64,000 nt of DNA from Rhodohalobacter sp. SW132 (GTDB lineage: Bacteria; Bacteroidota; Rhodothermia; Balneolales; Balneolaceae): NCBI RefSeq assembly GCF_003390325.1, contig NZ_QUOK01000001.1, positions 434,001-498,000 of the forward strand. The letters are read 5' to 3'. The position numbers were made by a program, and so were the translations under genes. The notes under the pieces are model-generated. The model worked only from the letters and a program-made list of their open reading frames with translations, was not told the DNA's origin and ran no database searches. Of this stretch, positions 41,324-54,309 are shown in pieces (positions within the stretch are counted from its first letter, which is position 1; each line of letters opens with the position of its first letter).

Positions 41324-41641
41324 GTGTTGGATCATAGAAAACGGAATACATTTTGCCATTACGGCGTCATAGTGCGGGTTATTGTGGCTCATTTGCTCGC
41401 GGGGGCTCGTGCAATTGCACAAGATGTAAGCTTCCGATACCTCACCATGGATGACGGCCTCTCCCAAAATGCCGTGTACTCCATCCTGAAGGATAGCCAA
41501 GGCTTTATGTGGTTTGGGATCAGTGTTCAGTTTGTCAGAGAGCAGTGTGTCAGAGGGATGTCTGCCAAAACTTACAATCCAGAAGAGGAAAGGGGTGCAG
41601 GGGACCGGCTTGGGCTGAGTTTAACCATTGAAATTATTTAA
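41324..41641 (+). pseudogene. Truncated N-terminus of a propeller-type hybrid sensor
   Basis: The frame has the standard opening of periplasmic propeller sensors: a signal-like end (RVIVAHLLAGARAIAQ), then VSFRYLTMDDGLSQNAVYSI and LKDSQGFMWFG. This is the first propeller blade of a Reg_prop protein. After FG at about 41517 the resemblance stops abruptly and about 40 unrelated residues lead to a stop. The intact sensor starts 60 bases later with a different lipoprotein-type N-terminus. It is therefore the stump of a second, lost sensor gene or the displaced true N-terminus of the next gene. The original start may have been a GTG near 41371. Confidence 0.65.
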
Positions 41642-41700: not shown

Positions 41701-44700
41701 TTGAATTGCCAATTTAACCAGACAACTATATTGTCACCTGCCAGGTGTTTGGGGATCCTGATGATACTCCTGCCATTGATTTTATTGGCGGCCTGCACCA
41801 AAACGTCCGGAGATCGGGACGCCTCGCTCCCACCACCGCTTTACCCTCAACCTCAAACGGTTGAACTAAAAGCAGGTGTTTCCATCACTGCCACACCAAA
41901 AATCATCCACCCCGACAGCGTAGCTAAACCCCAATCTTTTATAGTTGACCAAGCAGCATTAACCAGAATAAATGCCCATCCCAACCGGCGACAGATACCC
42001 AACGAGCTAACCACCATACCCATCGATCAAAACCAACTCAACACCATACCTTTGAGGAAAGGCAACCCCGATTTCGTCTTGCGTAATTCCATTGGTGACA
42101 CGATACCCACCGGTGTTCCTATTCTCGCTAAGGGTAAAGTGGTAAAGGCTATTCGTTCTAAACCCACAAAAGCCTTGCCACCCGTTACCAAAGATGCCGC
42201 CATTGCCCACCTTCAATATTTAAATATGGAGCAAGGGTTGGCTTCATCATTCGTCAGGGCTGTTTTAGAAGACAGAAGCGGAAATATCTGGCTGGGGACC
42301 CGGAGAGGTGTGAGTGTATACAATGGAGAGAGCTTTACTCATTATAGTGAAAACGAAGGATTATCCAATAATTTCATCAGGGCCATCGCAGAGGATCAAA
42401 GCGGAAATATCTGGCTGGGAACCGAAGGTGGTGGGGTGAGCGTATTTGATGGAGAAAACTTTACCCATTACACTGAAAGAGAAGGCTTTTCCAATAATTT
42501 AGTCAGAGCCATCCTGGTGGACAAAATTGGAAATATTTGGTTGGGTACTCGGGGCGGCGGGGTGAGCGTCTTTAATGGAGAAAGCTTTACCCATTACACC
42601 GAAAACGAAGGATTATCCTATAATGATGTCATGTCCATCGCTGAGGATAAAAACGGAAATATCTGGTTGGGGACTTTTTATGGTGGGGTGAATGTATTTG
42701 ATGGAGAAAGCTTTACCCATTACAGCGAAAACGAAGGATTATCCAATAGTAACGTCGTGTCCATCGCAGAAGATCGAAGAGGAAATATCTGGCTGGGAAC
42801 TGATGGCGGTGGGGTAAGCGTATTTAATGGAGAGAGCTTTACTCATTATAGTGAAAACGAAGGTGTATCCAATAGATTCGTCTGGTCCATTCTGGAAGAT
42901 AAAAACGGAAATATATGGTTGGGGACTCGGGGTGCCGGGGTGAGCGTATTTACTGGAGAAAACTTTACCCATTATACCGAAAACGAAGGATTATCCAATA
43001 ATACCGTATTCTCTATCACAGAGGATCATAGTGGAAATATCTGGGTAGGGACCGAAGGCGGAGGTGTGAGCGTATTTACTGGAGAAAACTTTACCCATTA
43101 CAGCGAAAACGAAGGATTATCCAACAATATCGTTAGGGCCATTTTAGAGGATCAAAGCGGAAATATCTGGCTGGGAACCGAAGGTGGTGGGGTGAGCGTA
43201 TTTGATGGAGAAAACTTTACCCATTACACCGAAAATGACGGATTATCCAATAATGACGTCATATCTATTTTGGAGGATCAAAGCGGAAATATCTGGCTGG
43301 GAACTGAAGGCGGAGGTGTGAGCCTGTTTAATGGAGAAAACTTTACCCATTACAGCGAAAACGAAGGTGTATCCAATAGTTACATCAGGGCCAGTCTGGA
43401 AGATAAAAGCGGAAATATCTGGCTGGGCTCTCGGGGAAGGGTGACCGTATTTGATGGAAAAAGTTTTATCCATTACATCGATAAAGAAGGTGGATCCAAT
43501 AGTGTTGTTTGGTCCATTCTGGAGGATCAAAGTGGAAATATCTGGCTGGGGACTGAGGGCGGCGGGGTTAGTGTATTTGATGGAGAAAACTTTATCTATT
43601 ACACAGAAAATGACGGATTATCCAATAATTTTGTAAGAACCATAGCAGAGGATAAAAGCGGAAACATCTGGTTGGGGACCTGGGGTGGAGGGATAAGCGT
43701 CTTTAATGGAGAAAACTTTACCCATTACACCGAAAAAGAAGGCTTATCCAATAATACCGTATTCTCCATCATAGAGGATAAAAGTGCCCCTTTAGATGAA
43801 GTCATCGTTTATATCGGAACGGAAAACGGGCTGTCAAAAATTTCATTAAAAGAAGATGAAACTTCCGGGGATAAGGAATTTGCGTTTAGTATTCAAAACT
43901 TTGGCAAACAAGATGGATTGAAGGGCTTGAGATTTACAAAAGGTGCCACTATAGACAGTAAAAACCGCGCCTGGTGGGGCACCGGTAATGGGTTAGTAAT
44001 GCTGGATTTGAATACACTTACATTTTCTGATAAAATACCTCAACCCCGGTTATCCCAATTAGAAATTAACGAGCAGTTTATAGACTATCGCAATATTCCA
44101 GATAGCCCCGATAGCGATCTGAATCAGATCACATTTAGTGGAGTGCAAAAATTTGAGAACTATCCCCTCAGTTTACAATTGCCCTACGATAAAAACCACC
44201 TCACCTTTTATTTTGCAGCCATCGATTGGGCAGCACCGCATAAAATCCGGTACAGTTACAGGATGGAAGGCTTACATACAAATTGGAGCCAACCCACCGC
44301 CGACCCGGTGGCCGATTACCGTAACCTGCCCTTTGGCTCCTACACCTTTCAAATCCGGGCCATAGGTGAGAGTGGAGTATGGAGTGAGCCGTTTAATTAC
44401 TCATTTGCCATTCTCCCCCCCTGGTGGCACACATGGTGGGCGTATGGATTGTATGGTTTTCTGTTTCTTTCCGCCATCTATTCCCTGCGGCGTTACGAGC
44501 TGACCCGGTTTAATTTGAAAAATGAGCTGCAGCTTGAAAGAGTAGAAATTGATTCTCTAAGGAAGCTTGATCATCTTAAATCACATTTCTTTGCAAATAT
44601 CTCTCATGAATTCAGAACGCCGCTGACGCTGATTATCGGGCAGATTGAAACCCTGCTTAATTCTGAAGATGACCGGAATAGAAAAAAGAAATTGATTTCC

Positions 44701-46113
44701 GTGAACAATAACGCCGAACAGCTACTTGCATTGATTAATCAGCTTCTGGACCTGTCGAAGCTGGAAGCTGGCAAAATGGAGTTTTCTCCTGAAAAGCAGA
44801 ACATCGTTTCGTTTTTAAAAAACCATTTGTTTTCGTTTGAATCCCTAGCAGAGACAAAGAATATCAGCCTGAATTTTACGTCGGCCCGAGCCACAATACC
44901 GGTAGGTTTCGAAGCCGACAAAATGGAAAAAGTATTTTTTAATCTGTTTATGAATGCCTTCAAGTTCACGGAAGCCGGCGGACGAATCGATGTGTCTGTT
45001 GAAACTCCGCAGCCTGATGTTGTTGAAATACGGGTAAAGGATTCCGGGATCGGCATATCCAAGGATCGTCTGCCCTACATTTTTGATCGGTTTTACCAGG
45101 CTGACCCATCCAGCACACGAAAATATGAAGGAACCGGTATTGGGCTGGCACTGGCGAATGAGCTGATAACACTTCATAGTGGAACGATTGATGTGGAGAG
45201 CGAAGAAGGTGTTGGTACTGAATTTATCATCCGGCTTCCATTTCAGGAAGATCACGTTTCAGACTCTTATGATGCCGTTATGAATGAGCATGTAAACGGA
45301 GAAAACGTTTCGCCTGCCTCTGCCCTTCCCGATTTTGAAGCTCTCCTTTCAGATCATGATGAACTGGTTCTGATTGTGGAGGACAATGATGATGTGCGAT
45401 CTTTTATCAGGGAACAGCTCGAAAACGATTATAAAATCCTGGAAGCCGCTAACGGCCTGGAGGGAATTGCCGTATCGCAGGGCACCATCCCGGATTTAAT
45501 TATCACCGACTTGATGATGCCGGAAATGGACGGATATGCGTTCAGTGAGAAAATCCGCAGCGATGAAAAAACCAGCCATATCCCCATCATTATGCTGACT
45601 GCCAAGGCCGGGCTCGATCCCAAAATTGAGGGGCTGGAAGCGGGAATTGACGCCTGGCTGACCAAACCGTTTCATGTAAAAGAGCTGCAAATAAGGGTGA
45701 AAGCTCTCATTCAGCAGAGAAAGAATTTAAAGCAACAATTTAGTACGGCCACGTACTTTAAACCTTCGGTGATTGCGAAGACCCCTGTCGATCAGAGTTT
45801 TCTTGGAAAGGCCATAGAAATGATAGATTCTCATCTCTGCGAAGAATCTTTTCTGGTAGAAGATTTTGCAGCATCACTGAATATGAGCATCTCCCAGCTC
45901 AACAGAAAACTGAACGCCCTGGTTGATCAGCCGGCCGGAAACTTCATCCGGTCCGTGCGTCTGCAGCGCTCGGCAGAACTACTGAACCAAACCGATAAAA
46001 CCATCGCCGAGATCTGCTACGACGTCGGATTCAACGATCAGGCGTACTTCTCTCGCGCCTTCAAAAAACAGTTTGGTAAGAGTCCGTCGGCATTTCGGAA
46101 GTTGTCTATTTGA
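41701..46113 (+). CDS. Hybrid two-component sensor-regulator with periplasmic propeller and AraC output
   Basis: A 1470-residue protein with a TTG start. Order: a lipoprotein-like signal (lipobox LLAACTK), a Pro-rich linker to about residue 170, twelve tandem 42-residue propeller repeats at about 180-695 (SGNIWLGTEGGGVSVFDGEN), a diverged remainder and a Y_Y_Y domain to about 910 (YSYRMEGLHTNWSQP). A helix follows near 920. The kinase has H969 (ISHEFRTPL) and a C-terminal ATPase (DSGIGIS, GTGIGLALANEL). The receiver has D1270 (ITDLMMPEMDG). An AraC-type HTH ends the protein (IAEICYDVGFNDQAYFSRAF). One protein thus senses outside and binds DNA inside. A lipidated N-terminus is unusual for this family. 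Confidence 0.93.
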   Translation: MNCQFNQTTILSPARCLGILMILLPLILLAACTKTSGDRDASLPPPLYPQPQTVELKAGVSITATPKIIHPDSVAKPQSFIVDQAALTRINAHPNRRQIPNELTTIPIDQNQLNTIPLRKGNPDFVLRNSIGDTIPTGVPILAKGKVVKAIRSKPTKALPPVTKDAAIAHLQYLNMEQGLASSFVRAVLEDRSGNIWLGTRRGVSVYNGESFTHYSENEGLSNNFIRAIAEDQSGNIWLGTEGGGVSVFDGENFTHYTEREGFSNNLVRAILVDKIGNIWLGTRGGGVSVFNGESFTHYTENEGLSYNDVMSIAEDKNGNIWLGTFYGGVNVFDGESFTHYSENEGLSNSNVVSIAEDRRGNIWLGTDGGGVSVFNGESFTHYSENEGVSNRFVWSILEDKNGNIWLGTRGAGVSVFTGENFTHYTENEGLSNNTVFSITEDHSGNIWVGTEGGGVSVFTGENFTHYSENEGLSNNIVRAILEDQSGNIWLGTEGGGVSVFDGENFTHYTENDGLSNNDVISILEDQSGNIWLGTEGGGVSLFNGENFTHYSENEGVSNSYIRASLEDKSGNIWLGSRGRVTVFDGKSFIHYIDKEGGSNSVVWSILEDQSGNIWLGTEGGGVSVFDGENFIYYTENDGLSNNFVRTIAEDKSGNIWLGTWGGGISVFNGENFTHYTEKEGLSNNTVFSIIEDKSAPLDEVIVYIGTENGLSKISLKEDETSGDKEFAFSIQNFGKQDGLKGLRFTKGATIDSKNRAWWGTGNGLVMLDLNTLTFSDKIPQPRLSQLEINEQFIDYRNIPDSPDSDLNQITFSGVQKFENYPLSLQLPYDKNHLTFYFAAIDWAAPHKIRYSYRMEGLHTNWSQPTADPVADYRNLPFGSYTFQIRAIGESGVWSEPFNYSFAILPPWWHTWWAYGLYGFLFLSAIYSLRRYELTRFNLKNELQLERVEIDSLRKLDHLKSHFFANISHEFRTPLTLIIGQIETLLNSEDDRNRKKKLISVNNNAEQLLALINQLLDLSKLEAGKMEFSPEKQNIVSFLKNHLFSFESLAETKNISLNFTSARATIPVGFEADKMEKVFFNLFMNAFKFTEAGGRIDVSVETPQPDVVEIRVKDSGIGISKDRLPYIFDRFYQADPSSTRKYEGTGIGLALANELITLHSGTIDVESEEGVGTEFIIRLPFQEDHVSDSYDAVMNEHVNGENVSPASALPDFEALLSDHDELVLIVEDNDDVRSFIREQLENDYKILEAANGLEGIAVSQGTIPDLIITDLMMPEMDGYAFSEKIRSDEKTSHIPIIMLTAKAGLDPKIEGLEAGIDAWLTKPFHVKELQIRVKALIQQRKNLKQQFSTATYFKPSVIAKTPVDQSFLGKAIEMIDSHLCEESFLVEDFAASLNMSISQLNRKLNALVDQPAGNFIRSVRLQRSAELLNQTDKTIAEICYDVGFNDQAYFSRAFKKQFGKSPSAFRKLSI
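42230..43790 (+). repeat. Twelve tandem 126-bp coding repeats inside the hybrid sensor
   Basis: The word for SGNIWLG (gaaatatctggctggg and near variants) recurs every 126 bases from 42281 to 43661; the first interval is 123 bases and one later unit lacks a codon. Each unit encodes one 42-residue propeller element (IWLGT, GGGVSVFDGE, FTHYTENEGLSNN). Many units differ at only a few codons and several pairs are nearly identical in DNA, suggesting recent duplication or gene conversion inside the gene. Confidence 0.9.
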
Positions 46114-46521: not shown

Positions 46522-46782
46522 CTTTGGGTGTATTGGAGGGCGGCGTATTACACTCCCACTCTTGCAAAACGCCCTTTGACGCCGCCATCTTCGTTTTATT
46601 CGCGGCGCAGCAACAAACCTGGTTCGAAATCTGAGTTTTGCGCGCCGCGCTTCCTAACCGAATGCCCATTATCATCCTGACCGAAGGTGTGTATTTCACC
46701 TGAGCGGAAGGATCTCCTTGTTATCGGCAGGAGCTCTGAAAAGCATTGGTCTTCTCCGTTTACCATTTTTTGACCCAATAAT

Positions 46783-46816
46783 CCAAATAAATGCGTGGTT
46801 TCTACAAGAGTTTGAC
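46783..46816 (+). promoter_or_regulatory. 34-bp candidate AraC-type operator, site 1 (upstream of NTF2-like lipoprotein gene)
   Basis: CCAAATAAATGCGTGG... ending AGTTTGAC. Aligned without gaps to 47720-47753 it shares 24 of 34 bases (pattern CCAAA.A..TGCG.GG, then CAA.AGTTTGAC). Two related half-sites (TCCAAATAAATG and TACAAGAGTTTG) lie 21 bases apart, two helical turns, as expected for an AraC-family dimer. It ends 147 bases before the ATG at 46964. Confidence 0.5.
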
Positions 46817-46963
46817 TCTTCGCTGTCATAGTTTTTGAAAGGAATCATTCAACTATCAACCGGTACATCAATGAAAAGCTGACTGATATTCAAGGAAAAA
46901 TCAGTTGTGCATAGGTAATCATTGTCACGTTTACAAAACTCAAACCCGGGGAAAACACACATT

Positions 46964-47461
46964 ATGAAAACTAAGCCGACCAACCTCTTTTTAGCCTCTC
47001 TATTAATAGTTTCATTTTTAATGACATCATGCACTCAAACGCAAAATCAAACCCAAACAAGTAATCCAAATGTGGAGGTTGTTCAGGGAATATATGATGC
47101 GTTTGCAGCCGGGGATGGTGGGGCCGTACTGGCAACTTTTTCACCCGATATCGTTTGGAATGAAGCCGAAAGCAATTCCCTCGCGGATGGCAATCCTTAT
47201 GAAGGCCCGCAGGCTGTTGCTGAAGGTGTATTTGGACGAATCGGCCAGGAATGGGAAATATTTACTCTCACCGATCAAACCCTGTACGGGGTTGGTGAAG
47301 ATATGGTAATGGCTACAGGAAAATACCAGGGAACGCATGCTGTAACCGGAAAGTCGATCAATGCACAACACGTCCACATCTGGTGGTTTGAAAATGGACT
47401 GGTGACACAATTTCAACAATACGTGGATACCAAACAGCTTGCTGATGCGGAGTCGGAATAA
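46964..47461 (+). CDS. SnoaL/NTF2-like lipoprotein
   Basis: A 165-residue predicted lipoprotein. The ATG at 46964 (MKTKPTNLFLASLLIVSF, then LMTSC) gives a proper lipobox; an upstream in-frame ATG-like start at 46922 would bury it. The mature part is a nuclear-transport-factor-2/SnoaL cone: VEVVQGIYDAFAAGDGGAVL, FSPDIVWNEAESN, AQHVHIWWFENGLVTQFQQY and VDTKQL. Such domains bind small hydrophobic ligands or act as small enzymes. It lies 850 bases from the sensor and 357 bases before the SDR; all three may be linked through the operator-like boxes. Precise role unknown. Confidence 0.82.
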   Translation: MKTKPTNLFLASLLIVSFLMTSCTQTQNQTQTSNPNVEVVQGIYDAFAAGDGGAVLATFSPDIVWNEAESNSLADGNPYEGPQAVAEGVFGRIGQEWEIFTLTDQTLYGVGEDMVMATGKYQGTHAVTGKSINAQHVHIWWFENGLVTQFQQYVDTKQLADAESE

Positions 47462-47475
47462 ATCAAGACAGAGAG

Positions 47476-47520
47476 AGCCCCGGAATGAAGTTTTTGAGAA
47501 CAGCTTTGTCTCGGGGCTTT
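47476..47520 (+). terminator. Possible terminator after the NTF2-like gene
   Basis: AGCCCCG (47476-47482) pairs with CGGGGCT (47512-47518), followed by TTTAATAAAG, with a long 29-base loop. It starts 14 bases after the stop. The long loop keeps confidence low. The rest of the gap to 47719 has no gene that I can support. Confidence 0.35.
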
Positions 47521-47719
47521 AATAAAGGTTCTAATGGAAAGTTTTGGGTTGTGTGTTGAACTGTCTAATTGTGAACTGTTGAATCGATTCTCCAACGACA
47601 AACAGATCCACAGCTCATCAGTTCAACGTGAGCCACCTGCGCTATAGCTACGGATGACAGGCGAAGCGAGCACTCGACAAATCAACTCGCGGCAAAAGCC
47701 CCAAAATCGCCCAAAAAGT

Positions 47720-47753
47720 CCAAACATTTGCGCGGATAATCCAAAAGTTTGAC
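47720..47753 (+). promoter_or_regulatory. 34-bp candidate AraC-type operator, site 2 (upstream of SDR gene)
   Basis: CCAAACATTTGCGCGG... ending AGTTTGAC. It holds two clear direct half-sites, TCCAAACATTTG and TCCAAAAGTTTG, whose starts are 21 bases apart. It ends 65 bases before the ATG at 47819, a suitable place for an activator. It matches site 1 at 24/34 and site 3 at about 21/34 positions. Confidence 0.55.
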
Positions 47754-47818
47754 ATCACCTTCAATTACATTCAAAGGAGCAGAAAAAACTTAACCATCAA
47801 CAACAAATCTACACAACT

Positions 47819-48763
47819 ATGAAAACAGCAGGCATTATTGGCGGTTCAGGATATATCGGCAGCTACGTCACGAAACGATTTCTCGAAGAGAACTACAGCG
47901 TGAAGGTGACTGCAAGAGATATCTCTAAAAAGAAAAAATACGAGCATTTAAAGCAGCTTCAGAGTGCAGAAAACCTGGCCGTTGTTCAGGCCGACGTAAC
48001 GGACATCGATTCCCTGAGGGCGTTTATGGATGGATGTGATATTGTAGTTCACACCGGAACGCCGTTTCAGCTGGACGTAAAAGATCCAATCAAAGAGCTC
48101 TTTGAGCCCACCATCAAAGGCACCGAGAATTTCCTGGCGCTCATCCAGGAATCCGGCACGGTAAAGCAAGTGGTGGTTGTGGCGTCCGTTGCCGCATTTA
48201 ATACAGGGTATCCGTTGCCGGTTGAAGGGCTCCCGGCCGATCATCTTTACACCGAAAGTGATGAACCACACCTGAATGAAGAGGGGCATCCATATTGTCA
48301 GGCGAAATATTACGCTGACCAGGTTGTCCGGAAATTTGTAGTCGACCACCCGCAATCCGATATCGACATTGTAAGCGTGTACCCAACAGGAGTGATGGGT
48401 CCGGCTCTTTCACAGCGGGATGATTCCACATCCATGGGCCTGCAGTATCTGTTTAAAAACAAAATTGCCCCCAACCCATTTATGCAGATGCTTTATGACA
48501 GCGACATGGAATTTGCCATCGTGGATGTCCGCGATGTAGCCGAGGGAATTTTCAGAGCAGCCACCAAGGGGGGACTGCACGGCAGGCAATACTACCTGAG
48601 CAACGAGAGCTGGAAGGTGTCGGATATTTCAAGAATGCTGAACAGCGCGCCGGTTCAGGAGAAATGCAGATTTGTGTACAGCGGCAAACGTGCAGAGCAG
48701 GAGTTGGGCATTACGTATAAAACGGCGGCGGCATCTTTTAATGATTATGCGGCGGGTATTTAA
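47819..48763 (+). CDS. Extended SDR: NAD(P)-dependent epimerase/aldehyde-reductase-like
   Basis: A 314-residue Rossmann enzyme. The cofactor loop is GIIGGSGYIGSYV. Later come HTGTPF (the substrate-side NAD motif), VVVASVAAFNTGY with the catalytic Ser region, YCQAKYYAD with the YxxxK pair, and YPTGVMGPAL, followed by VDVRDVAEGI. The whole resembles the dihydroflavonol-4-reductase / cinnamoyl-CoA-reductase-like group of extended SDRs, which reduce aldehydes or ketones. It has its own candidate operator and a 357-base upstream gap, so it is regulated separately. Substrate unknown. Confidence 0.9.
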   Translation: MKTAGIIGGSGYIGSYVTKRFLEENYSVKVTARDISKKKKYEHLKQLQSAENLAVVQADVTDIDSLRAFMDGCDIVVHTGTPFQLDVKDPIKELFEPTIKGTENFLALIQESGTVKQVVVVASVAAFNTGYPLPVEGLPADHLYTESDEPHLNEEGHPYCQAKYYADQVVRKFVVDHPQSDIDIVSVYPTGVMGPALSQRDDSTSMGLQYLFKNKIAPNPFMQMLYDSDMEFAIVDVRDVAEGIFRAATKGGLHGRQYYLSNESWKVSDISRMLNSAPVQEKCRFVYSGKRAEQELGITYKTAAASFNDYAAGI

Positions 48764-48795
48764 ATCACTGTCAACCGGCCATTTTACCGAAAAGT

Positions 48796-48829
48796 GCAAA
48801 CATTCGTGTGAAAAGTCCTAAGATAATAC
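48796..48829 (+). promoter_or_regulatory. 34-bp candidate AraC-type operator, site 3 (upstream of phosphatase operon)
   Basis: GCAAACATTCGTGTGAAAAG, continuing TCCTAAGATAATAC. Aligned without gaps to 47720-47753 it shares about 21 of 34 bases, best in the first half-site (CAAACATT.G.G.G). It lies in the 311-base gap between the SDR stop and the phosphatase gene at 49075, which otherwise is A/T-rich and carries no credible gene. It is weaker than sites 1 and 2 and could also lie downstream of the SDR for no purpose. Confidence 0.35.
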
Positions 48830-49074
48830 AGGTCTATTCTCTACACTTAAAAAGCTTAAAAGATGATTTCTTAAATATGTGTCGTATTAAAAAATTAATG
48901 CAATTGATACTGTTACAGTTTAAAAAAATAAATCATATTATGATATATCTTCCCTTGATTTTTATAAGATTTAAAACTATACACGCTGTGCTGCTGTATT
49001 TCATTCTTCAAATCAACAATCAGTAGATCCGTGGAGTCGATTTACAAACCGCATGTTGACTTTATAGTAGATTC

Positions 49075-50403
49075 ATGAAACAAAACAATTCCCATAATAT
49101 GCTGACGGACGACCAGAAACGTCTTGAAGAAGAAAACAGACGCCTCAGGGGGGCCGTGGATGAACTGGCAATCCTGAACGATCTTGCCCTGGCTATCGGG
49201 GGTAGTCTGGATAGCGAAAAAATTATGCGGTCTATCATTGGCAAATCAATACGGGCACTTGGAGCTGAACAGGGGGATATTACGCTCATTGACGAAAATC
49301 AGGCAAATCCAACACAGACGCTCGTCAGAAGCATGATTACCACGAGCGAGCATTCTCCCCTGCACCTGAATCAGAATCTTCTGGGCTGGATGCAAATCAA
49401 CAAGAAACCGCTGCTAATAAACGAGCCGGAAAACGATTCCCGGTTTCGAAGCGTGGAGTGGGATAACACTATCCGCTGCCTGTTAAGTGCTCCCCTGATG
49501 GCGAGGTCAAAATTGATTGGAATTCTTACCGTTTACAATAAGCGTGCTGAAGGCGACGCGGGGTTTTCAGAATCTGACCAGCGACTGCTTTCTATCATTT
49601 CGGCCCAGTCGGCCCAGGTCGTTGAAAATGCACGGTTCTACGAGGAGGAACAGGCGTATCAGTTTATGCGGAAGGAGCTTGAATTGGCGTCATCTATTCA
49701 GAAAAAGATGCTTCCAACGGCCCCGCCTCAACTCGAAGGTTACTCTATCGCGGGAAAAAATGTAACTGCCCAGGAGGTTGGCGGCGATTATTTTGACTAC
49801 ATCCAAATGGATGAACACCGATGGGCGATTTGCCTGGGGGATATCAGTGGTAAGGGCCTGCCCGCATCACTGTTGATGACAAACCTGCAGGCCATACTCC
49901 GCGGACAGACCTTTCACCTGGTCAAACCGGGTGAAATTCTTAAAAATGCCAACAGACAGCTTTATCAAAGCACAAATACTGAAAAGTTTGCGACCCTTTT
50001 CCTCGCCATTTTGGATACTTCAAGCCATACGATTCATTACTCAAGCGCCGGCCACGACTATCCATTTTTGATGAAAAATAACGGCACACACCTGAGGCTT
50101 AAAACAGGAGGCCTGCCGCTCGGAATGATGGACGGAGTGGAGTATGAAGAAGAGACGATACACCTCGAGGAAGGAGACCTGCTGTTTATATTTTCAGACG
50201 GCGTGACAGACGTTTCTAATATGGAAGAGAAACCGCTGGGTGAGGAGTCTGTTTTTAAATTGCTTCAAAATTCACATAGGCTCAGTGAATCGCCTGACAG
50301 CCTCATCAAACATGTGGTAGATACGTGCCTGAACTACTGCGGAAAGGCACAGCTTTTTGATGATGTCACTGCTGTTGCATTAAAGAGAACTGTAACCGGA
50401 TAG
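49075..50403 (+). CDS. GAF-domain PP2C phosphatase (SpoIIE/RsbU-like)
   Basis: A 442-residue cytoplasmic protein. A short coiled coil (about 10-30) precedes a GAF domain at about 30-190 (LGAEQGDITLIDENQ, CLLSAPLMARSKLIGILTVY). The C-terminal PP2C/SpoIIE domain, about 200-440, has the metal-binding motifs VGGDYFDYIQ, LGDISGKGLPASL and IFSDGVTDVSN. In known systems this type dephosphorylates anti-sigma-factor antagonists, but no such antagonist or anti-sigma gene is in the window. It begins an operon with the ABM gene (11 bases) and the kinase gene (1-base overlap). The GAF ligand is unknown. Confidence 0.92.
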   Translation: MKQNNSHNMLTDDQKRLEEENRRLRGAVDELAILNDLALAIGGSLDSEKIMRSIIGKSIRALGAEQGDITLIDENQANPTQTLVRSMITTSEHSPLHLNQNLLGWMQINKKPLLINEPENDSRFRSVEWDNTIRCLLSAPLMARSKLIGILTVYNKRAEGDAGFSESDQRLLSIISAQSAQVVENARFYEEEQAYQFMRKELELASSIQKKMLPTAPPQLEGYSIAGKNVTAQEVGGDYFDYIQMDEHRWAICLGDISGKGLPASLLMTNLQAILRGQTFHLVKPGEILKNANRQLYQSTNTEKFATLFLAILDTSSHTIHYSSAGHDYPFLMKNNGTHLRLKTGGLPLGMMDGVEYEEETIHLEEGDLLFIFSDGVTDVSNMEEKPLGEESVFKLLQNSHRLSESPDSLIKHVVDTCLNYCGKAQLFDDVTAVALKRTVTG

Positions 50404-50413
50404 GAGGAATGCT

Positions 50414-51172
50414 ATGCACTTACGAATGGTAGAAGCTGCCGTTAATAAAGATGGTGACCTGAGCCTGGAGCATCTTTATGCTGAAAAAATTATTCCGGCT
50501 CTTGAACATACGGCCGGGTGCATTTTTGCCGGACTGCTGCAGCGAGAGGACCAACCATCTCATTACATCTCTTTAACACTTTGGCGCAATGAAAACGATG
50601 CAGATAGCTATGTTCACTCCGGTGAATACCAAAAAAATTTACAGATAATAGAGCATACACTTGAGGAAAGTGATAAATGGAAAATTCAACTCTCCAAAGA
50701 CAATATAGTCGAATACACCCCGGTAGAGATCGAACCGGAAGTAAAATCATTTACAGTCGCCAAACATCAGGATGTTCTGCCTCCCCATCTAGCGGCTAAG
50801 AGCAGCTACCTGAGAATTCTTTCTCTGAAAATTAAGTCAGGTCAGGAAGATGAGTTTAAAAAAATCTACAGTGATGAAATTTTGCCCCAATTGGAATCAG
50901 TCAATGGGTGTCAGTTTGCTTTTTTACTGGATAATTCCAGCCATAACGGGGAGATGATTTCCCTTACGATTTGGGATGATGCTGCTTCGTTAGATTACTA
51001 CGAAAAAGAAGGGTTGTTTAATGCTTTTATGGGCCGGCTTAAGCACACGCTTGGCGACCTTTACAGGTGGAAAATGGCGCTCAAAAACCGCACGAAATCT
51101 GCTACAGCAGTAACCAGTCAGGATATTGGCGTGAGTAAATATACAATGATCACCGGCAAAAAATTTGAGTAA
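50414..51172 (+). CDS. Protein with two ABM-like (dimeric alpha/beta barrel) domains
   Basis: A 252-residue protein with two tandem antibiotic-biosynthesis-monooxygenase-like halves. Each has a strand, a helix with LYAEKIIPALEHTAGC or IYSDEILPQLESVNGC, then ISLTLWRNENDADSYV or ISLTIWDDAASLDYYE. The two Cys-preceding segments show the internal duplication plainly. ABM domains bind heme or small quinones, or only bind ligands. It has a strong AGGAGG (50402-50407) 6 bases before the ATG and overlaps the kinase start by one base, so it is co-made with phosphatase and kinase. Its part in that system is unknown. Confidence 0.8.
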   Translation: MHLRMVEAAVNKDGDLSLEHLYAEKIIPALEHTAGCIFAGLLQREDQPSHYISLTLWRNENDADSYVHSGEYQKNLQIIEHTLEESDKWKIQLSKDNIVEYTPVEIEPEVKSFTVAKHQDVLPPHLAAKSSYLRILSLKIKSGQEDEFKKIYSDEILPQLESVNGCQFAFLLDNSSHNGEMISLTIWDDAASLDYYEKEGLFNAFMGRLKHTLGDLYRWKMALKNRTKSATAVTSQDIGVSKYTMITGKKFE

Positions 51173-53835
51173 TGGACTTGACTGACACAGCCATATCTCA
51201 CTACACCATAACCGGAAAAATCGGTGCAGGTGGTATGGGCGTAGTTTACAAAGCGCGCGACACCAAACTCAACCGTGACGTTGCCCTAAAGTTTTTACCG
51301 GACACATCCACCGTTGATGCAGAATCCCAAAAACGATTTTTACAGGAAGCGCAATCCATCGCCCAAATCAACCATCCCAATATTTGCCAGATTTATGGTA
51401 TAGAAGAGGATGACCACGGCGGCAGGTTTATCGTGATGGAGTATGTTGATGGCGTAAATCTTGACGAAGCCTTTATCAGTTCGTCCGGTCTCCAAACAAG
51501 GCAGCCGAAAGGAGGCTCAGAAAATACCGGCACGCAAAAAAAGCCTGAAACAAGATCTGAACTGATTCTGGATTTCGCGATTCAGATCGCTAGGGGTCTG
51601 GATGCGGCCCATCAGAAAGGAGTGATTCACCGCGATATCAAGCCGGCAAACATCATGATAACGGACACCGGTCAGGTAAAAATTCTGGATTTTGGATTGG
51701 CAAAACCTTCCGGAGTCGACGACATAACCCGGGTAGGTGCCACGCTGGGCACAATCTCCTATATGTCGCCTGAGCAGATTAAAGGCACCGGGGTTGATAA
51801 GCAATCAGATGTTTGGTCTTTTGGAGTTGTATTGTATCAGATGGTTACCGGGCGTCTGCCTTTTGGCGGAGATTACGAACACTCCATCATGTATTCGGTT
51901 ATGAATACTGACCCGCCTCCCATACCAAATAGTGATCATCAGCTGTCCGAACAATTTATAAAGCTAATTGAACGATGCCTCTCAAAAGATGTGGAAGGCC
52001 GCTACCCATCAGCAACAGAACTGCTTGAAGAGCTGCTTGAGATTGCAGGTTATTCAACAGTGAATGTTAAGTTATCATCTAATGAACCGAAGAAGCCCAG
52101 TTCCGGAAAACCTGCTCTTCGAACAAGGAAAGTACTATTCGGATCAGGCGTTCTTGCAATTCTGTTTTTAACTGTATTTATGCTGTTCAATAGGTCTGAC
52201 CTGTTGCAATCCGGTTCCGGTACACCCGGCACAGAGTTAATCCATGTGGCAGTTCTCCCTTTTTCCAACATTGGGGCTGATCCCGGACGCCAGGTATTTG
52301 CCGATGGTCTTGTGGAAACAATTACAAGCCAGCTCTCCCGTCTGGAACAGTTCCAGACCGATCTCTGGGTGGTGCCGCCCGGAGAGTTGCGAAGCCATAA
52401 CATCACGAGCGCCGGAGAAGCCAACCGGATGTTTGGTGTGAACTATGCAATTGCCGGAAGTCTCCAGCCTATTAGTGATCGGCTTCGGCTGACAATTACG
52501 CTAATCGATTCAAAAAATCTTCGACAGATAAATTCGGCGGTTGTGGACGTTGATGCTTCCGAGGTTTTAGAACTGCATAACAAGTCTGTAGAAAACCTTT
52601 TGACTATGCTTAACCTCGAGCTGAACCAGGAAACCATCGGGGTGATAAACGAAGGTAAGACCACAGTCCCTGCTGCATTTGAACTCTATGTTCAGGGTCT
52701 CGGCTATCTTCAAAAATATGAGCAAAAATCAGAAAATATAGACAACGCCATCAATGCCTTCAATGAAGCTGTTGCGATAGATAACGATTTTGCACTTGCA
52801 CACGCCGGTCTGGGACAAGCATACTGGAGTAAGTATGAAAATACCAGAGAGCGGACCTGGATTAACAGGGCTGTTGAGGTGAGTAAAATTGCCTATGACC
52901 TGAACAATAAACTCTTGCAGGTGAATATTACAAGGGGAATGATCAGTTCAGGAACAGGAAACTACGAAGAGGCAATACAATATTTTAATGACGCCCTGTC
53001 GACCGACCCCACCAGCGCCGATGCTCTTCTTGGGCTTGCCGAAGCTTATGAATATACAGGGAATTATGAGCAGGCCGAATCAACGTACAAGCGTGCCATT
53101 CGCCTGAAACCAGACTATTGGGCCGGATACAATTATTTGGGGGCTTTTTATTATCGAAACAGCAACTACGATAAAGCGAAGGAGCAGTTCAGGCGCGTGA
53201 TAGAGGTCACACCCGATAATTACCGTGGCTATATGAACCTTGGCAGCATGCACTATTTTACTGAACAGCTTGAAGAAGCCCGGGCCATGTATGAAAAATC
53301 CCTTGATCTCGAAAAAACCTATAGCGCCGCTTCAAACCTTGGCACACTTTATTTTATAGAAGGGAAGTATCCGGAGTCGGCTGACATGTATACCACGGCT
53401 ATTGAAATAAACGATGGTAATTATGTTTTGTGGGGGAACCTCGCAAGTGCCTACTATTGGTCTCCCGGTAAACGGAATCAATCGTTTTCCGTGTATGAAC
53501 GTGCGCTTGAGTTGGCAAAAGAGCAGAATGAAATCAACCCCAACAATCCGGACATTATTATAAACATGGCCGGATACGAAGCCCGGCTCGGAAACAAGAA
53601 ACAGGCAATAACACATGTGCAACAGGCACTTGAATATGCCCCTGAAAGTGCAACGATCATGTACCTGGCAGGCAGCGTTTATGAACAGCTGGGTGTTAGA
53701 TCGAAAGCTCTGACATGGATCAAAAGCGCAATGGATGCCGGCTATTCGAGATCTGACATTGTAAATCAACCTGAACTTCAGGAGTTGATAAGAGATCCGC
53801 GTTTTCAGGAGATTTTAAAAACGGAGCCTCGCTGA
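51172..53835 (+). CDS. Membrane Ser/Thr kinase with TPR-rich extracytoplasmic part
   Basis: An 887-residue protein. Residues 10-300 are a Hanks-type kinase: GxGGMG loop, K40, the HRDIKPANIM loop with D155, and DFG at 173-175, then GTISYMSPEQI. One helix at about 318-340 (KVLFGSGVLAILFLTVFMLF) is followed by a TolB-N/FlgO-like segment (HVAVLPFSNIGADPGRQVFA, YAIAGSLQPISDRLRLTITL) at about 355-480. From about 500 to the end are seven or more TPR repeats. The kinase should be cytoplasmic and the TPRs periplasmic. The coupling to a PP2C phosphatase suggests opposing kinase and phosphatase on a shared target. The activating signal is unknown. Confidence 0.92.
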   Translation: MDLTDTAISHYTITGKIGAGGMGVVYKARDTKLNRDVALKFLPDTSTVDAESQKRFLQEAQSIAQINHPNICQIYGIEEDDHGGRFIVMEYVDGVNLDEAFISSSGLQTRQPKGGSENTGTQKKPETRSELILDFAIQIARGLDAAHQKGVIHRDIKPANIMITDTGQVKILDFGLAKPSGVDDITRVGATLGTISYMSPEQIKGTGVDKQSDVWSFGVVLYQMVTGRLPFGGDYEHSIMYSVMNTDPPPIPNSDHQLSEQFIKLIERCLSKDVEGRYPSATELLEELLEIAGYSTVNVKLSSNEPKKPSSGKPALRTRKVLFGSGVLAILFLTVFMLFNRSDLLQSGSGTPGTELIHVAVLPFSNIGADPGRQVFADGLVETITSQLSRLEQFQTDLWVVPPGELRSHNITSAGEANRMFGVNYAIAGSLQPISDRLRLTITLIDSKNLRQINSAVVDVDASEVLELHNKSVENLLTMLNLELNQETIGVINEGKTTVPAAFELYVQGLGYLQKYEQKSENIDNAINAFNEAVAIDNDFALAHAGLGQAYWSKYENTRERTWINRAVEVSKIAYDLNNKLLQVNITRGMISSGTGNYEEAIQYFNDALSTDPTSADALLGLAEAYEYTGNYEQAESTYKRAIRLKPDYWAGYNYLGAFYYRNSNYDKAKEQFRRVIEVTPDNYRGYMNLGSMHYFTEQLEEARAMYEKSLDLEKTYSAASNLGTLYFIEGKYPESADMYTTAIEINDGNYVLWGNLASAYYWSPGKRNQSFSVYERALELAKEQNEINPNNPDIIINMAGYEARLGNKKQAITHVQQALEYAPESATIMYLAGSVYEQLGVRSKALTWIKSAMDAGYSRSDIVNQPELQELIRDPRFQEILKTEPR

Positions 53836-53892
53836 AGAGGCAGAATGTATGTATACACATCAACTAAAACCAAGTCTAATGAGGAGAATGTT

Positions 53893-54309
53893 ATGAAGAT
53901 AAAATCGATAATTACAATTGCAGCAGCACTCGTGCTGTTTTTTATTTCCAACGTGCTATATGCACAGTCACCGCCTAATGATAATCGATCCGTTCTCCAT
54001 GAAATGGTTGTGAAAATGGTTGACGAAGAGTGGCGGGTAGTTTACAAAAACGACGAGACGAAAAGCACTATTGTCGCGAAGAAAAATGACAGGGTCAGCT
54101 GGACTGCTGAAGGGTCCGATATCTCATTTCAGTTTGACGAGAGTCTCTTTGGTGGAAGTTCTTTTGAGATTGCGGACGGAGACTCACTAATGCGTCCGTT
54201 AGCACCCGGTGCCAAAGTCGGCGAGTATATCTATGCTGTTTTTGTTCGCGGTGCAGGAGTGTTTGCAAAAGGAGAATCGCCCCCGAGAATTATCATTGAC
54301 AGGATGTAA
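53893..54309 (+). CDS. Small exported protein of unknown function
   Basis: A 138-residue protein. The ATG at 53893 has GAGGAG 7 bases upstream and gives a clear signal peptide (MKIKSIITIAAALVLFF, ending LYAQ). The rest is beta-rich with VAKKNDRVSWTAEGSDISFQ and GEYIYAVFVRGAGVFAKGES. This could be a cupredoxin-like or immunoglobulin-like fold, but no copper ligands (His, Cys, Met set) are visible. It follows the kinase by about 60 bases and may be the extracytoplasmic ligand or product of that system. I do not recognise a family. Confidence 0.7.
   Translation: MKIKSIITIAAALVLFFISNVLYAQSPPNDNRSVLHEMVVKMVDEEWRVVYKNDETKSTIVAKKNDRVSWTAEGSDISFQFDESLFGGSSFEIADGDSLMRPLAPGAKVGEYIYAVFVRGAGVFAKGESPPRIIIDRM

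Follow-up and report, generated by a model that had tools for sequence, protein, structure and literature searches.

The three boxes described here, which lie in a 64,000-nucleotide stretch of DNA from a Balneolales bacterium (the window), are very probably bound by the hybrid two-component system (HTCS) whose gene lies beside them. By this reading of the sequence, the HTCS is predicted to bind the boxes physically, in a phosphorylation-dependent manner, and to activate rather than repress an NTF2-like lipoprotein gene, an SDR gene and a SpoIIE-ABM-kinase operon. The proposed regulator, the boxes and the predicted targets are listed below, with domains assigned by Pfam.

41701-46113, + strand: HTCS, proposed box regulator, 1470 aa; Reg_prop, Y_Y_Y, HisKA, HATPase_c, Response_reg and HTH_18/HTH_AraC
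46771-46807, + strand: box 1, upstream of the NTF2-like lipoprotein gene; units TGACCCAATAATCCAA (46771-46786) and TGCGTGGTTTCTACAA (46792-46807)
46964-47461, + strand: NTF2/SnoaL-like lipoprotein gene (SnoaL_2), predicted target of box 1
47708-47744, + strand: box 2, upstream of the SDR gene; units CGCCCAAAAAGTCCAA (47708-47723) and TGCGCGGATAATCCAA (47729-47744)
47819-48763, + strand: extended SDR (epimerase/3-beta-HSD-like), predicted target of box 2
48784-48820, + strand: box 3, upstream of the SpoIIE operon; units TTACCGAAAAGTGCAA (48784-48799) and CGTGTGAAAAGTCCTA (48805-48820)
49075-50403, + strand: GAF-SpoIIE phosphatase, opening the box 3 operon
50414-51172, + strand: ABM-domain protein, box 3 operon
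51172-53835, + strand: Ser/Thr kinase with TPR repeats, box 3 operon
53845-54309, + strand: small secreted protein with no Pfam match, end of the box 3 operon

The first-pass annotation had placed three similar 34-mers at 46783-46816, 47720-47753 and 48796-48829, coordinates that are right. The likeness of the first two holds, although a recount gives 25 identities in 34 positions in place of the 24 claimed; among 300 Markov-shuffled intergenic pairs, scored by their gapless best 34-mer, none reached 25 and the maximum of 24 occurred in six. The second and third sites share 21 of 34, in agreement with the earlier estimate of about 21. By itself this value is at chance level (shuffles mostly gave 19-22), so that the case depends on comparative evidence. 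The half-sites TCCAAACATTTG and TCCAAAAGTTTG of site 2 do start 21 bases apart, as had been described. What did not stand is the frame and length of the shared box, which is real but covers 37 bp in a shifted register. It consists of two direct 16-bp units separated by a 5-bp spacer, hence a period of 21, with the unit consensus TGCGCGRATAGTCCAA over 43 sites. These sites are the window's three together with those found in relatives at E<1e-3 by R1, a sequence-only model of 73 columns built from nine sites (the window's three plus promoters of SDR orthologues). The column correlation is 0.72 at lag 21 and at most 0.24 at every other lag from 5 to 29. Comparing unit 1 with unit 2 of each site gives an identity of 0.69 at lag 21, against 0.16-0.30 for the other lags tested, and sites outside the R1 training set give 0.70 at lag 21. 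The box is therefore a direct-repeat motif with a period of about 21 bp, as expected for an HTCS. Two other descriptions of the sites were discarded. The literal half-site pattern CAAANNTTTG-N9-TCCAAANNTTTG, with up to 3 mismatches, gave 9 matches against 10 in a reversed control, which is no excess, and the inverted CAAAnnTTTG look of site 2 arises from a unit end plus the spacer and is not a recognised element.

Comparison with related genomes, which had been proposed as a check, finds the box kept before SDR, NTF2 and SpoIIE orthologues of other Balneolales. Most SDR orthologues from relatives (73-90% identity) carry the box upstream amid otherwise dissimilar DNA, and the footprint that emerges reads ACCGAAAAGTCCAAACATTTGCGCGGATAGTCCAAG followed at a fixed distance by TACATTT. 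Each of the three window sites matches this footprint without gaps, including its TA...T element, and the third, weak site thereby belongs to the set. Its presence upstream of the phosphatase operon stands as first proposed; its description as weaker does not, since it aligns as gaplessly as the others. Box 2 is kept before SDR orthologues in six other genomes, while boxes precede NTF2 orthologues in G003, G031 and G076 and SpoIIE orthologues in G031, G040 and G089. No box was found in the fetched loci of distant SDR orthologues (33-57%).

Evidence for the identity of the regulator comes from a search for the HTCS receiver-HTH part and the box in the same 116 relatives, many of whose assemblies are fragmented. 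Orthologues of the HTCS output occur in 12 of the 116 genomes at 75-87% identity (100% for the window itself), below which there is a gap; the next matches are at 63% (a paralogue in G067), 58% (a paralogue in G003) and then 44%. Every one of these 12 genomes has boxes at E<1e-4, an overlap with a hypergeometric probability of 1.3e-14 when kinship is ignored, a figure that overstates the case for related genomes. The distribution is patchy, and two genomes of the same genus as the window (G001 and G002) are without both box and HTCS. Boxes at E<1e-4 are present in two further genomes, G051 and G081. In G051, the first 198 residues of the HTCS (78%) lie at a contig end beside its box. In G081, an assembly of 330 contigs, a strong box lies at a contig end and no HTCS orthologue was found.

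Location points in the same direction. The stop codon of the HTCS marks the beginning of the box in G037, G041 and G045. The distance behind the HTCS gene is at most about 50 bp in G053 and G067, and some 0.2-0.8 kb in G014, G040, G076 and G003; in G031 and G089 some boxes are far from the HTCS contig. The genes that follow the HTCS-adjacent box vary among an ABC transporter, a TonB-receptor-like protein, an SDR, an NTF2 protein and a secreted protein. Since these genes differ between genomes, the HTCS is the constant partner of the box. Moreover, G040 and G045 possess HTCS and box with no close SDR. The simplest reading in the first-pass annotation, in which the neighbouring hybrid sensor controls the boxes through its AraC output, is thus supported by co-occurrence of the box with the output domain, by boxes directly behind the HTCS regardless of the following gene, by genomes that have HTCS and box with no close SDR, and by the lack of a box in the fetched distant SDR loci.

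A separate AraC-family regulator encoded elsewhere could instead bind the boxes, leaving the HTCS as a mere neighbour or as a target itself. Direct half-sites 21 bp apart are general among AraC proteins, and G081 has a box with no HTCS detected. This explanation is nonetheless unlikely, because the box tracks the HTCS output domain in 12/12 genomes and adjoins the HTCS gene while other neighbours change. Nor does the HTCS look like a target, as there is no box before its gene in the window, which likewise gives no sign of autoregulation.

Turning to the HTCS itself, Pfam places a sensor, HisKA, HATPase, a receiver and an AraC-type HTH in one polypeptide. Judged as sequence motifs, those of the phospho-acceptor His (SHEFRTPL at 968) and Asp (DLMMP at 1270) are intact, as are SHIP at 1292 and the Lys motif TKPF at 1321. 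The recognition-helix segments SQLNRKL and DQAYFSR are identical in all 12 orthologues, whereas distant HTCSs differ. The sensor half probably has a different history. The orthologues in G053 and G014 match the window HTCS at 85% and 76% in the output part and at only about 28% in the sensor, and in G067 and G089 the match starts at residue 731. In G053 and G014, the N-terminus is of the ordinary Reg_prop type; that of the window-type HTCS differs from it and has a lipobox-like LLAAC. A trace of the ordinary type is found directly 5' of the HTCS gene.

41324-41641, + strand: relic of an ordinary Reg_prop HTCS sensor N-terminus, with the match at 41351-41581

The relic, assigned to Reg_prop by Pfam, is 49% identical over 77 aa to the N-terminus of the G053 HTCS (tblastn, E 1e-16), and the same sensor relic occurs in the same place in G051 (G051:C54, 595-789). 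It is likely that the sensor was replaced in the window's lineage, if the direction of change has been read correctly, with the output domain and box kept; the relics in the window and G051 would be fossils of this replacement. Two features of the sensor deserve mention in their own right. The N-terminus (41701-41850) contains the lipobox-like LLPLILLAAC, which appears as LLPLFLLAAC in G051 and G076, and this is odd for an HTCS that also needs an inner-membrane span before the kinase. The propeller repeats (42200-44000) are near-identical to each other (GNIWLGTEGGGVSVFDGENFTHY...), which suggests recent repeat expansion or homogenisation.

Each box in the window is followed at the same distance by a -10-like element.

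46829-46834, + strand: -10-like TAGTTT, 21 nt past box 1
47766-47771, + strand: -10-like TACATT, 21 nt past box 2
48842-48847, + strand: -10-like TACACT, 21 nt past box 3

Among 33 sites not used to build R1, 28 have TAnnnT exactly 21 nt past unit 2, and where the scored match stopped before the element, TAnnnT is present at the fixed column or one base on in 18 of 21 sites. With this fixed spacing, the downstream unit ends at the would-be -35 position. In AraC-type activators, as at araI, the downstream half-site is located at the -35 region. A GTTTGAC behind the box was considered as a -35 element and rejected by eye, its spacing to the -10 not fitting.

This geometry bears on a further possibility, that the HTCS does bind the boxes and acts chiefly as a repressor, or that paralogous HTCSs of the genome share the sites. 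Some HTCSs do repress, an example cited in PMC11253607 being BT2391, and G003 and G067 each have a second HTCS of the group (58-63%). Both variants are quite unlikely for the window. Lying a constant 21 nt before the -10, the box occupies an activator position and does not cover the start, and the window HTCS has the SHIP motif, which is linked to phosphorylation-dependent binding. The own genome is without a second member of the HTCS group; the two remaining matches at E<=1e-20 are short hits of receiver type, 38-40% identical, in frames of 226-248 aa. The second HTCSs of G003 (G003:C95) and G067 (G067:C70) are of interest in themselves. Both genomes contain variant boxes in which the first part is degenerate and the second unit contains GTACAA (G003:C171, G003:C3; G067:C33, C72, C83), a hint that regulator and site may co-vary there; GTACAA is also present in some sites of other genomes.

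The genome-wide search with a matrix of the sites, suggested at the outset, returned exactly three strong sites and not random positions. Over the 5.08 Mb of the own genome (45 contigs), R1 gave E-values of 1.4e-16, 3.2e-14 and 6.9e-12 with the next at 0.44, and a larger model of 49 sites (R2) again gave three, at 1.8e-13, 1.4e-8 and 2.1e-8, with the next at 0.15. All three fall within 2.1 kb behind the HTCS gene. Three copies do not make the transposable repeat copied many times that the first-pass annotation had named as a refutation, and similarity is confined to the two units and the -10. Chance resemblance or a copied mobile or intergenic repeat, which the chance-level identity of sites 2 and 3 might have favoured, is refuted by the scarcity and strength of the sites (E down to 1e-16), by the limits of the conserved sequence and by its retention before orthologous genes. 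In the phylum at large, an even draw of 296 genomes contained nine with matches at E<=0.001, of which seven bear the HTCS and two have one short marginal match each. The weakest sites (E 1e-3 to 0.06) are regarded as candidates only. Boxes are often situated at contig ends (G031:C118, C234, C303; G040:C58; G081:C84; G089:C21, C109); long identical boxes may break short-read assemblies and leave box-rich regions under-represented.

What the boxes precede in relatives extends the list of predicted targets. NTF2, SDR and SpoIIE units recur, and in G031 and G040, too, the operon led by a box has the small secreted protein gene after the kinase gene. Other genes behind relatives' boxes encode a Cu amine oxidase, a flavin amine-oxidase-family protein, RidA with a zinc alcohol dehydrogenase, an amino-acid permease, a branched-chain-amino-acid-type ABC transporter with an AMP-ligase, an arginine-deiminase-family protein, a cupredoxin lipoprotein, a nitronate monooxygenase, single-domain response regulators, and secreted proteins that match no Pfam family. 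No susC/susD pair, SusD or glycosidase was seen among the window targets or the relatives' downstream proteins scanned by Pfam, and the regulon does not look glycan-related. Amine/aldehyde metabolism is a lead for its theme; the enzymes fit loosely and differ between genomes. In G031, a copper amine oxidase C-terminal remnant lies between NTF2 and SDR genes (G031:C71, 2460-2704), and elsewhere (G031:C198) an NTF2 gene is followed by a whole copper amine oxidase. Related cysteine-rich lipoprotein genes stand behind boxes of G089:C277 and G067:C72, the former product matching Pfam Ephrin_rec_like (E 2e-23). In G076:C3 (14870-16100), an amino-acid permease gene that runs into a stop after 312 codons separates the third box from the SpoIIE operon, unlike the window, which has no permease gene between box 3 and that operon.

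If the HTCS is the regulator, as is preferred here, control could proceed as follows. A periplasmic signal on the propeller sensor would trigger autophosphorylation of the kinase, and the phosphate would pass to the receiver within the same chain, which would then free the AraC-type HTH domain. Two such domains would sit side by side on one face of the DNA, one per 16-bp unit, with the downstream unit abutting the -35 region, and RNA polymerase would be recruited to the TAnnnT 21 nt on. As an outcome, all three target units (NTF2-lipoprotein gene, SDR gene and SpoIIE-ABM-kinase operon) would be switched on.

Literature searches on HTCS regulons in Balneola and on HTCSs connected with amines brought up nothing specific. 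The site is short, and the window contributes a regulator-box pair from Balneolales that is strongly supported by comparison between genomes and lies outside the glycan context usual for such systems, together with a motif that predicts regulon members in >10 other genomes. In addition, differing sensor halves on one output domain and box offer a natural experiment on the re-plugging of one-chain sensors.

Among known systems, one point of reference is AraC at araI1-I2, which occupies two direct half-sites 21 bp apart with the downstream one at the -35 region. The boxes share both the spacing and the placement; unlike AraC, the window HTCS has no sugar-binding domain and is predicted to be controlled by phosphorelay instead. 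The closest parallels are the HTCSs of Bacteroides, whose motifs Ravcheev et al. (2013, PMC3878776) predicted to be direct repeats with an average spacing of 21 bp. As in the window, sensor, kinase, receiver and AraC-type HTH form one chain and the regulator adjoins its targets (PMC3878776). For HTCS_Man, two 16-bp sites with a 5-bp spacer were predicted (PMC3878776), which is exactly the geometry of the box; the comparison covers the geometry, the unit TGCGCGRATAGTCCAA having been derived here. The differences are in the host, a Balneolales bacterium as opposed to Bacteroides for the published motifs, and in the targets, which are susC/susD and glycosidases in Bacteroides and an NTF2-like lipoprotein, an SDR and a SpoIIE/kinase operon here. 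Receiver-HTH fragments of the HTCSs BT4124 and BT4663 bind their target promoters, and the SHIP-DK motif has been linked to inhibition without phosphorylation (PMC11253607). The domain order of the output half is the same and the window HTCS has a SHIP motif; in BT4124 and BT4663 binding was shown and the signals are glycans, while the window HTCS is known from sequence. GppX of Porphyromonas gingivalis, a hybrid system whose regulon is not a glycan one (PMC5706477), is similar by its description as a hybrid kinase-regulator that controls genes outside glycan-use loci. There is perhaps an even chance that this HTCS represents a branch that left glycan control and became, in Balneolales, the head of a fast-rewiring regulon of signalling proteins (SpoIIE/Ser-Thr kinase) and of redox enzymes acting on small molecules (SDR, SnoaL, Cu amine oxidase, RidA, alcohol dehydrogenase, cupredoxin), reconnected to a new signal by a swapped periplasmic sensor, with the kinase, the DNA-binding half and the box retained. 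Taken with these precedents, the system belongs to a known type of control, the hybrid two-component system with AraC output, of which it is a new and well-supported case.
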